Assembly: GCA_903789495.1 (NCBI GenBank)
Contig: CAIFEQ010000002.1
Span: 1-64,000, forward strand
Direction: 5' to 3'
DNA: 64,000 nucleotides
Source: an uncultured Erysipelotrichaceae bacterium
Lineage (GTDB): Bacteria > Bacillota_I > Bacilli_A > Erysipelotrichales > Erysipelotrichaceae
Both the position numbers and the translations under genes were made by a program. The notes under the pieces are model-generated. The model saw nothing but the letters and a program-made list of their open reading frames with translations. It did no database searches and was not told the DNA's origin. Positions 4,137 through 60,255 of this stretch are shown here, one piece after another (the first letter of the stretch is position 1; every line of letters starts with the position of its first letter).

Positions 4137-4160
4137 AAAAGCCCTGCCTGGTCTCAGGGC
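4137..4160 (-). terminator. Terminator overlapping stop of Cna-B gene
   Basis: On the minus strand GCCCTG and CAGGGC (4155-4160 and 4141-4146) form a stem followed by TTTT. The stop codon of the surface protein (4154-4156) lies inside the stem, so the gene genuinely ends here and has no further exon for a membrane anchor. Confidence 0.7.
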
Positions 4161-5236
4161 CTGTCGCTGGTATTCGGAACCGCCGGCCGTTCAGGGACTG
4201 CGGGTGTTACCGGCGTGCTGCTTTCCGGTGTCGCTGTCGGTGTGGCCGTGGGAGTCGGTGTGCTGCTCAGGGAATTGGTCAGTTCCAGCGTAACCGTACT
4301 GCCGGAAGTGGACGAAGAGACCGAGGTCTCATAATCCGAACCATCTTCGGTCATGCTGTATGTATAGGCTTCACCGCTGTCCGGATCATACTGCAGCAGA
4401 TCCGTGATGGTATAAGACCATTCATTTTCTTCTGACAGAACATAGGAACTGCCTTCCGGATACACCTCGCCATCCCGGGTCAGATGCACCGTCACCGGCT
4501 GTCTTTCTTCTTCCGGTACGGAGGAATCCCAGACCTTTCTCAGCGTTACGCTGACATGTTTCGGCGAATAGTTCACCGTTACACCGATGATCTGCGGATA
4601 TCCACCCAGACTCTGTTCCGACTCATTCGTCAGAGCGGAAACAGTCGTATTGCATTGCTCATATGTTTCTGCCTCAACCGTCAGCGCATCCTGTTCTGCC
4701 TGCTCTTCGCCGTATTCATGAAACCCATAAACATCGATCCACCAGGATTCAGCATCCAGGATGTCCGGATCCGCCTCAAAAGTGACGAGGTGCAGGCGGC
4801 GAGGTGTGGTATTGCTCGTGCCGCTGTGGTAATTCGTATCATAATCCTCTGTCACCAAGGTTCTTGTCGTCGAATCTGCCTCCAGAGAAAAGGTATGCGT
4901 TTCCTGCGGCATATAAAGATCATAATGTTCCCCGGCGTCTTTAAACTCGAGATAGTCAAACGTGAGATTCTGCCCGTCGAACGTGAAAGACTGCAGAGAA
5001 CTGGCAGTACTGCTGCCCCCTCCACTTATACGCGCCATATGCAGTTTTTCCTTTTTCACATAGCTGACTGTGACCGGCTGGACATAGGCATCCTCTGCCC
5101 ATACGACGGTGATCCTGATCCGGTATAATGTTGTATCTACAACGGATGAGGCTTCGACCGGCAGCAGTGCTCCTGCTGCACTGACCAGTGCTGCGGATAA
5201 TGAAAGCAGGATTTTCCTGATCTGATTGTGTTTCAT
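4154..5236 (-). CDS. Secreted Cna-B domain surface protein
   Basis: A 360-residue exported protein. The start at 5236 follows a GGGGGG ribosome binding site and opens a signal peptide (KHNQIRKILLSLSAALVSAA). The centre is beta-rich, and a Cna-B-type domain begins at SVTLRKVWDSS and includes NEWSYTITDL. A Thr/Pro spacer (TPTPTATPTATP) leads to the terminal residues VPNTSDRP. That end resembles a sortase motif, but no hydrophobic segment or charged tail follows, so cell-wall anchoring is doubtful. The same ending style occurs in the surface gene near 60.2 kb. Likely role is adhesion or matrix structure, which is inferred. Confidence 0.75.
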   Translation of the reverse strand: MKHNQIRKILLSLSAALVSAAGALLPVEASSVVDTTLYRIRITVVWAEDAYVQPVTVSYVKKEKLHMARISGGGSSTASSLQSFTFDGQNLTFDYLEFKDAGEHYDLYMPQETHTFSLEADSTTRTLVTEDYDTNYHSGTSNTTPRRLHLVTFEADPDILDAESWWIDVYGFHEYGEEQAEQDALTVEAETYEQCNTTVSALTNESEQSLGGYPQIIGVTVNYSPKHVSVTLRKVWDSSVPEEERQPVTVHLTRDGEVYPEGSSYVLSEENEWSYTITDLLQYDPDSGEAYTYSMTEDGSDYETSVSSSTSGSTVTLELTNSLSSTPTPTATPTATPESSTPVTPAVPERPAVPNTSDRP

Positions 5237-50363: not shown

Positions 50364-51668
50364 TCACCTTCTGACCGGACGGATGTCCTTGTAGATGGTG
50401 CCGCCCTTCATGACCAGATGCACCGAATCCGGATCGCAGAGAATCTCCAGATCTTCCAGCGGGTTGCCGTGCACAAACAGCAGATCGGCAAAGGAACCGG
50501 CTTCCAGCACCCCGATCTTGCCATCCGGTTAGGGATTCAGGAAGGTCGTCAGCTTCGACAGTTCATAGGCATTTCCGGTAGCGGCTTTCAGGCCCCGGTA
50601 GCTGCCGAAGAATTCCTTATATCTCCGGAAATCCCGCAGCTGCTTGTCCCGTGGTTCATCCTGCACGCATTCTTCCCGGAATGGATCGGTGCCGAAGACA
50701 AAGTTCAGATCATACTTGTTGATCAGTTCAACCTGATGGTACAGACCTCTGACCATGTAGGAGATCTCCGGCTTCTGCCGCCTGACCGGTGTTCCCAGCA
50801 GGGTCGGGAACGGCTTGGAGCGTTTGACTTCCCTGCCGGCTCCCCATTGCGGGCAGACGCAGATCCAGGAACCGGTATCCCGGATGCGCCGGGCATTATC
50901 TTCATCCATCAGGGTAGCATGCTCAAAGGAACGCACGCCCGCATCCAGGGCCCTGCTGATCGAGGCCGGGATATAGAGATGGGCCATGACATAGGTGCCA
51001 AAATCCGAAGCGGCCTGCACGGCGGCCTTCATCTCTTCCAGCGTGAACTGCACGGTAAACAGCGGATCAAAGAAGGTGGCCATGCCGCCGCCGGCCATGA
51101 TCTTGATCTGGCTGGCGCCCAGGAACAGCTGCTGGCGGGCGGCCTTCAGCACTTCGTCCGGTCCGTCTGCCTTGGCCATGAAGCCATAGAGATTGGATTT
51201 GTTGGTGTCCTGCCGGTCCATGGAAAGATCCGAATAATAGCCGGAGTGATCATGCCCGCAGGTCTGCACAATGGCTGCATTGGAGGGGAAGATCCGCGGT
51301 CCCTTCAGCATTCCGTTGTCGATGCAGTTCTTCAGACCGACGGTGACCCCGCCGGCATCCCGACAGGTGGTAAAGCCGCGCATCAGAATTTCTTCAGCGT
51401 AGCGGGCGCTGCGCAGGACATACTCATCCCAGCGGTAGGTAGCCAGGGTGGCGACCGGTGCCGTCTGGGAAAAATGGATGTGGCTGTCGACAAGGCCGGG
51501 AATGATCGTATAGCCTCGGGCATCCAGGACGACGTCAAACTCGTCGGCCGGGACCTCCCTGTCCGTGATTTCCACGACCTTGTCATCCTGAATGATGATG
51601 GCGGAATCGGAAGTCAGATGATTCTCGGTACCGTTGAAAACGGCGGCGTGTTCAATCAGCTGTCTCAT
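50364..51668 (-). pseudogene. Metal-dependent amidohydrolase interrupted by TAA
   Basis: A 435-codon amidohydrolase-superfamily gene (imidazolonepropionase/prolidase-like). It has the metal motif GLVDSHIHFSQ, the lysine region GASQIKIMAGGG, then YVMAHLY, FEHATLMD and FGTDPF. An in-frame TAA at 50529-50531 (codon 380) cuts off the last 55 codons. These remain intact and in frame: PDGKIGVLEAGSFADLLFVH and the end VMKGGTIYKDIRPVRR. In relatives the site usually reads NPYP, so a Tyr codon may have mutated. The start at 51668 follows AAGGAG. The truncated product lacks the strands that close the beta-sandwich. Confidence 0.82.
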
Positions 51669-51838
51669 CAGAATTGTTCTCCTTCTCCGTAGCCGGTTCA
51701 CTGAGGTGAAACGTTCTGATCTGACAATAGCCGACAGGTCAGCCGCTTTCCGCTCTGAAAAAAGCAAAGCCTCATGCGGAAAATGCAAGCAGAAAGACGC
51801 ATGAAGCTATGTATGATGTGCATAGGAGATACACCGCC

Positions 51839-58021: not shown

Positions 58022-60205
58022 ATGAAAAAGAAGCAACTGTCTGACTTGGCCGAAAGCCTGGCTTTGGTTTGCAGCATCATTTTTCTGCTGTGCGGATTTC
58101 CTCTTTCTGCAGCAGCAGAGGAACCCGCGGCAGGCATCGTGACCACGGGAGCGGTGACGGAAATCTACCTGGATGGCGTCAGCGGCAGTGATGCGAACGA
58201 CGGCCTCACCGTCAGCACCCCGGTGAAGACCTTTGCCCGGGCCAGGGCCCTGGCCGACAGCTATGACTCGGACACCCAGGCCATTACCATCTATATTCTC
58301 AATACGGTATCCATCTCCGGTGATATCAGTCTATCGGGTATCAATGCCACTGTAAAAAGATATCCCAGCTTCACCGGCTACCTGATGCAGGTCAGCAGCA
58401 GCAGTACCGCAGCTCTGTCGGACATCACCATTGACGGCAACAGCGAAAATGTGACCGGCACGGTCTCTTCTTCGCTGATTTCCAGCTATGGCACCCTGAA
58501 TATCCAGGACGGAACAGTCCTGCAGAATAATGCGATCACAGCCCAGGGATATTTCGCTTCCCGGGGCGGTGCAGTCCTGGCGTCCGGCGGCACCGTCACC
58601 ATGACGGGCGGCACGATCACCGGCTGCTCCGCCAACATGGGCGGCGGCATTTTCGTGATCAATGCGGTCATGAACTTTTCCGGCGGCGTCATCCGTTCCA
58701 ACAGTGCCGTGGATACCTACAGCGGTTCTTCCCGCCATGCCGCAGCGGGCGGCGGCATCTGCATCTATGACCGGAATGCCGTCCTGAATCTCAGCGGCAC
58801 GGCCCAGATCATCAATAATACGTCCGAGGACATGGGCGGCGGGATATCTGTCGGCACCAGCATCGCCAGCAATGAAGCGCAGACGCTGAACATGACCGGC
58901 GGAACGATCAGCGGCAATACGGCCGGTTCGGCCGGCGGCGGCATCTATATTCAGTCCGGGCTTGCCGAAGGAGCAGTCGGCACGGCCAACATCACCGGCG
59001 GAACCATTTCGTATAACACGATGTCCGGCACCGGCATTGGTAACAGTGACTTTGGCGGCGGCGGAATCTATGTGAACGGCTCTTCGTATATCGATTCCAC
59101 GACTTCGGAACGGGTTGTTCTGCATGGCATCCTGAACCTGACCAATGTCCTGATCACGGACAATACCGCCGCGCTGCAGGGCGGCGGCTATGCGGCCTGC
59201 CCGATCTCGGAGACCAATGTCTATGTCAATGACGGTGCGGCGCTCTTCGGGAATACCGCAGCCTCGGCCCAGGAAATCTATATCCTGGCCACCAATGCCT
59301 ATGAGCTGCATTACGGAGATCCGACCTATACGATTTCCACCATCATGCTGGGCGGCACTTCGTATCAGTGGAAATACGACGATGGTACGGAAGTTCCCTA
59401 CGATGAGATGACCGGTACGCTGGATGCGGATATCGATGAGAGTCTGTCTCTGCATACCGATGTCACTTCGGATGCCAATGCCGAAGCCCTGGCCACGGTG
59501 CGGATCATCGGGAACACCTCGGCAACCCGGGGCGGCGGGATCGGTTCCAACGGGGTGGTCAACATCGGCAAGCTCTCGACCCTGATTGATGTCACCGTCA
59601 GCAAGACCTGGCTCAATGATGACAGTGCCGACCGTCCCGACAGCATCACGATTGAACTCTACCGCAGCACGGAAGGCAGCGATGCCGATCCGATCTATGT
59701 CGGCTATCAGACCATGACTCCCGACAGTGATGGCAGCTGGCCGTCTCTGACCTTCAGCAACCTTCCTGTCGAGGACAGTTCCGGCAATGCCTGCATCTAT
59801 TCCGTGGCGGAAAGAACGGTGGACGGCTACACCTCGGTCATATCAGGCAGTCAGGAAGAAAGTTTCACCATAACAAACGTCCCGCAGATCTCGATTCCGG
59901 TCACGAAGGTATGAAGCGGCGGCGCCGGCAGCAGCGTGGTCATTCACCTGTACGCCGATGGCGAAGAGGTGTCTTCCTGCCAGCTGAGCGCGGACAATGC
60001 CTGGCAGTACACCTTCACAGACCTGGATCAGGTCAGGGAGGACGGTACGGCCATCACCTATACGGTGACGGAAGATGCTGTCAGCGGCTATACCACTTCC
60101 ATTTCCGGCAGCCAGGAGGAAGGCTTCACCATCACCAACACGAAGACTCCGCCCATCACCCGTCAGCCGGTTCCGGATACCGGCGACCGGCCTGCCGATT
60201 CATAA
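58022..60205 (+). pseudogene. Beta-helix/Cna-B surface protein interrupted by TGA
   Basis: A 728-codon exported-protein gene. A signal peptide (VCSIIFLLCGFPLSAAAEEP) is followed by a right-handed parallel beta-helix (about 60-520) with repeated GGTI-x-GNTA-x-GGGIY units. Two Cna-B repeats follow, the first opening VTVSKTWLNDD. The second opens IPVTKV then TGA (59912-59914, codon 631) where Trp is expected, and continues in frame as SGGAGSSVVIHLYADGEE. The C-terminus is QPVPDTGDRPADS: sortase-like, but with no membrane anchor. Without read-through the product is 630 residues and loses the last repeat. Likely role is adhesion. Confidence 0.8.
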
Positions 60206-60224
60206 TATCTTGAATGCCTGTCAG

Positions 60225-60255
60225 ATCCCGTACGCCGGTGCGGGATTTTCTTTTG
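60225..60255 (+). terminator. Terminator after surface-protein gene
   Basis: ATCCCG (60225-60230) pairs with CGGGAT (60241-60246), followed by TTTCTTTT. It confirms that the gene ends shortly after the PDTGD motif. Confidence 0.7.

Follow-up and report, generated by a model that had tools for sequence, protein, structure and literature searches.

The window, by which we mean the whole 64,000-nucleotide stretch of DNA that was analysed, contains an open reading frame whose product, under the standard code, opens with a signal-peptide-like sequence, continues through a long repeat region and a Cna-B domain and ends at a TGA codon (Table 1). Counted from the ATG at 58022, this product has 630 amino acids and the TGA is codon 631, as the initial annotation had read it; the codon is equally in frame with an alternative start, GTG 57998. 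Beyond the stop the same frame remains open for 96 codons, one fewer than the 97 first reported, until it reaches the TAA at 60203-60205. The repeat region, which had been described as a beta-helix, comes out as successive beta strands in an AlphaFold2 model built on the eight sequences of alignment A1 (mean pLDDT 80.9), and the terminator that had been placed at the end of the gene corresponds to a terminator-like hairpin.

Table 1. Features of the interrupted gene, and the Cna-B loci of the same genome that have similarly short C-terminal ends
Feature	Position	Strand	Basis or remark
Open reading frame under the standard code, encoding a signal peptide, the beta-helix region and the whole first Cna-B domain	58022..59914	+	Ends at TGA
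Gly/Asn/Thr-rich beta-helix region (limits approximate), common to same-family relatives	58145..59569	+	Alignment A1; strand run in AlphaFold2 model
First Cna-B domain, complete upstream of the stop	59591..59878	+	Pfam PF05738
Second Cna-B domain, broken in its first strand by the TGA	59897..60142	+	Pfam PF05738, residues 634-715 of the read-through frame
In-frame TGA where the second Cna-B domain has its conserved Trp	59912..59914	+	Paralogue has TGG
VPDTGDRPADS stub and TAA; resembles LPXTG but lacks a membrane helix and a charged tail	60170..60205	+	
Terminator-like hairpin with T-rich tail, beyond the original gene end	60223..60248	+	Pattern match only
Short-ended Cna-B loci	Window 60170-60205 and 4154-4180; L002, L121, L122, L124, L125, L126, L128, L129		

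The open frame that follows the stop is not a chance continuation, because its codons match Cna_B: the 96 codons taken alone are recognised by the Pfam profile at E 8.2e-22 over profile positions 19-87. The part that precedes the stop matches PF05738 on its own at E 9.4e-16, and when the frame is read through, two Cna_B domains are found (E 1.4e-39; residues 532-627 and 634-715 counted from the GTG). In the AlphaFold2 model a long strand (622-640) links the end of the first domain to the start of the second, with the Trp position, 639, lying inside it; by this model, a stop at that position would leave the first domain complete and remove the remainder of the second. Separate translation of the tail was considered and rejected, both from the ATG that overlaps the TGA (59911), which is in another frame, and from GTG 59936, the first in-frame start past the stop, which has no evident ribosome-binding site.

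The same genome contains an intact, full-length paralogue on another contig (G000:C39:6454-8655, L002) that is 68% identical in amino acid sequence and has no stop; its codon aligned with the TGA is TGG. In family relatives the Cna-B domains of the same type likewise have their Trp within a matching K-x(0-1)-W context, in agreement with the initial annotation's placing of the TGA at a conserved Trp. Matches at E <= 1e-40 were found in 9 of the 272 family genomes. Among the homologues from these 272 genomes, none is interrupted by a stop within the region of the match, and so none carries the TGA itself, whose conservation among homologues would be expected of programmed read-through. Nor does any homologue among the aligned family relatives have its natural end at this position, a finding that had been named beforehand as one of two that would overturn the original interpretation; the TGA is consequently ruled out as a natural gene end. 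The relatives are not uniform in what follows the helix: certain ones, in G012 and G092, have a different repeat type there, and one (G293, L047) has a single Cna-B domain and a complete sorting signal, with the second domain entirely absent. A close copy from another strain was sought in collections of genome contigs, viral contigs, phages and plasmids, and none was present in them.

How long the stop has been in place can be judged from the sequence that lies behind it. In a comparison with the paralogue, the codons before the stop have a dN/dS of 0.297 (95% bootstrap 0.24-0.37) and those after it one of 0.220 (0.08-0.39); the constraint on the post-stop part is thus as strong as that on the pre-stop part. 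The 96 codons contain no further stop, and their GC3 matches that of the rest of the gene. The constraint and the lack of any added stop rule out an old pseudogene. From the upper limit of dN/dS, a simple mixture in which both lineages are taken as equal in length gives a rough bound: the tail would have been free of constraint for about a quarter, at most, of the lineage that leads from the paralogue split to this copy. Since the tail is undecayed, the stop must be young, or false, or read through, and its constraint would look alike if read-through had maintained it.

We favour the first of these, with somewhat better than even confidence: the TGA is a recent nonsense allele of one of two paralogous genes for secreted surface proteins. 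This was one of the two explanations originally offered, and a recent one-base change at a Trp codon is the one that best fits the intact TGG paralogue, the constrained tail and the lack of any relative that ends here. The main rival is that the stop is false, either a base error in the consensus or the consensus of mixed strains or of a minority allele, so that the living strain has an intact gene. The genome is a draft in 60 contigs, only one base is changed, and the undecayed tail is what an error predicts.

A second interruption in the window bears on both readings. An amidohydrolase (Xaa-Pro dipeptidase-like) gene on the minus strand (50364-51788), 9 kb away, has an in-frame TAA at 50529-50531, about 54 codons upstream of its natural end, and it is in these codons that the domain is completed: the post-stop part matches positions 303-344 of the 345 in the Amidohydro_1 profile, whereas read-through gives one match to positions 1-344, and the best NCBIfam match covers its profile from position 263 through the last, 398. 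That two genes of the window should both be interrupted in frame, with the domain continuing, is in keeping with consensus errors. To see how frequent such cases are, a 479-kb sample was scanned for coding signal that continues in frame past a stop, and six further junctions were checked with Pfam. At the TAA junction of window position 50529 a domain crosses the stop; at four other TGA junctions none does. The remaining junctions, of which part were checked, resemble neighbouring genes that share one frame. The beta-helix/Cna-B gene and the amidohydrolase gene are therefore just two recognised interruptions among 404 sampled genes, and the assembly is not obviously error-rich; moreover, constrained young nonsense alleles are common in bacteria (PMC7918605). 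On balance we consider a false stop possible but rather unlikely. The amidohydrolase break, being a TAA, is inexplicable by any property of tRNA-Trp, so that the breaks in this window are not specific to UGA, and the occurrence of two young breaks within 10 kb favours ordinary nonsense alleles or consensus errors.

The third prospect, that the stop is read through, depends on how UGA is decoded in this bacterium. In sampled stretches of the genome (479 kb, 404 predicted genes), TGA ends 238 of the 404 genes, TAA 138 and TAG 28. The prfB gene, which encodes RF2, is intact (G000:C1:27531-28568, L062); it has also kept a CTT-TGA-C site, the usual autoregulatory frameshift signal. Altogether 43 tRNA genes were found; in the ARAGORN listing a single tRNA-Trp appears, its anticodon being CCA, and no tRNA has a UCA anticodon. 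With UGA the main stop, RF2 intact and no UCA tRNA, a code in which UGA means Trp is ruled out. Selenocysteine is ruled out as well: the best score for a tRNA-Sec, 43.3 against a cut-off of 47, belongs to a tRNA-Ser gene, and shuffled sequences fold about as well as the RNA that surrounds the TGA (z-scores -0.6 to -0.9), which leaves no significant hairpin. The base that follows ordinary TGA stops in the 479-kb sample departs from its background, A being enriched (41% vs 27%) and C avoided (9.5% vs 25%).

There remains the possibility of leakage under the standard code, for which the sole tRNA-Trp(CCA) gene (G000:C7:33281-33354, L065) offers some grounds. Its product begins AGGGGUG UA GUAC AAUGGUA GUAC A UCGGU CUCCAAA ACCGC UCAU; U27 and C43 cannot pair, so that the anticodon stem has four pairs, while position 9 is A and the D stem has A24. 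Unpaired 27:43 is shared by all 27 readable same-genus relatives (L066-L093; U/C, with one U/U), and A24 occurs in every same-genus species that was read; position 9, by contrast, is C in 26 of the 26 relatives in which it is readable. The tRNA-Trp of a relative from another family has G27:U43. In E. coli, over-expression of a tRNA-Trp with C27A raises UGA read-through about 2.5-fold (PMC13092985), and UGA-A, the context of our site, is one that tRNA-Trp is prone to misread there, as stated or cited in PMC5289835. It can thus be proposed that this tRNA-Trp, with its four-pair stem and A24, reads some UGA as Trp, that a mixture of short and long proteins is made, and that the tail is still under selection, as its dN/dS of 0.22 would allow; the genus-wide unpaired 27:43 and the C9 of the relatives point in the same direction.

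Several observations speak against this proposal. UGA is the majority stop, UGA-A is also the commonest context of ordinary TGA stops in the sampled genes, and nearby back-up stops are hardly more frequent behind TGA genes than behind TAA genes; hence the genome gives no indication that UGA-A leaks strongly. About 6.5% of standard-code genomes have tRNA-Trp with the 4-bp stem only (PMC13092985), and the U27/C43 pair falls outside the variants tested in that study. The relatives do not conserve the stop, the hairpin does not rise above shuffled sequences, and the window's second interrupted gene is stopped by TAA. We therefore regard leaky decoding as quite improbable. The regulated read-through that had originally been offered as the second explanation finds no specific support, given the main-stop role of UGA, the UGA-A context that ordinary stops favour, the insignificant hairpin, the lack of a tRNA-Sec over the cut-off or of a UCA-anticodon tRNA, and the TAA of the other gene, although the unpaired top anticodon-stem pair of the sole tRNA-Trp leaves it a small probability. 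A broader form of the idea, in which the genus-wide four-pair tRNA-Trp makes UGA leaky and Trp-to-UGA changes, being partly suppressed, persist as switches between one- and two-domain surface proteins, seems to us very improbable. Were this tRNA-Trp to suppress UGA measurably, however, the locus would provide a natural test of the idea that, in bacteria with the standard code, Trp-to-UGA mutations can survive by virtue of such tRNAs.

What the stop costs the protein depends on its C-terminal end. This gene ends in VPDTGDRPADS and the paralogue in VPDTSDAPAQTEQAQR: in both, an LPXTG-like motif is present, with no membrane helix and no charged tail behind it, whereas family and genus relatives have the motif, a hydrophobic helix and a positive tail, that is, a full sorting signal. 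The end that had been called sortase-like is accordingly so in its motif, but the hydrophobic helix and positive tail that would complete a sorting signal are lacking, and neither copy can be counted among the sortase-anchored (LPXTG) proteins. Such a stub could not anchor the protein, so what the stop takes away is one Cna-B domain and not a wall anchor. Short ends of this kind recur in the genome: about ten of its Cna-B proteins end 1-10 residues from a VPxTxD-like motif, without membrane helix or charged tail, the variants being VPDTGD, VPDTSD, VPNTSD, VPNTAD, VPDTAD, VPDTRD, VPDTGA, VVNTSD and VPETSV. The helix is kept in the pilin that adjoins the one sortase (contig C52), and similar short ends occur in one other genome of the genus, G102.

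It could be argued that the one-domain form is the functional end of this copy, as it is in G293, and that the shortening was selected: the first Cna-B domain is complete before the stop, the G293 protein has a single one, and the stub that is lost had no anchor function. The parallel is imperfect, for in the G293 protein the sorting signal is complete and a second domain is altogether absent, and the undecayed tail of our gene excludes a long-standing shortening. We find a selected one-domain form most improbable.

The recent nonsense allele would have arisen as follows. The gene is one of two paralogues for a secreted protein that combines a beta-helix with two Cna-B domains, and a single change, probably recent on an absolute scale, would have turned a Trp codon into TGA where the second domain begins. 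If the living strain does have this base, RF2 would end translation there by the standard code, and the protein made would presumably be a secreted one of 630 residues, composed of the signal peptide, the beta-helix, the complete first Cna-B domain and a short remnant strand, with the second Cna-B domain and the VPDTGD stub lost. Its function may be covered by the intact paralogue on contig C39. As a nonsense allele the stop would be an ordinary one, young and confined to one of two paralogous surface-protein genes.

The locus can be compared with several known systems. With the Cna-B repeat surface proteins that have a beta-helix (Pfam PF05738), the product shares a signal peptide, a repeat region and Cna-B domains in which the Lys/Glu/Asn pattern of isopeptide-bonded repeats is visible in sequence; it differs in that the membrane anchor is absent from both copies and the stop interrupts the second domain. 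The recoding of UGA in selenoproteins resembles this case in having coding sequence after an in-frame UGA, but here the relatives' residue is Trp and not Cys, no tRNA-Sec exceeds its cut-off and no hairpin is significant. The tRNA-Trp system of PMC13092985 is similar in that the sole tRNA-Trp(CCA) of our genome also has an unpaired top pair in its anticodon stem and a TGA stands at a Trp position; in contrast, UGA is here the main stop, RF2 is present and no codon is reassigned, and the U27/C43 mismatch of this genus is not among the variants tested there. In that study 4-bp stems were associated with lower UGA use, and our sampled genome, with a four-pair stem and UGA as its commonest stop, is an exception to the reported link. 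The survey of in-frame nonsense alleles of bacterial genes (PMC7918605) drew on stops that strains or species have in common, whereas ours is in one genome only; the locus shares with those alleles the features typical of young, population-level stops, namely a single nonsense codon whose flanks are still under purifying selection.
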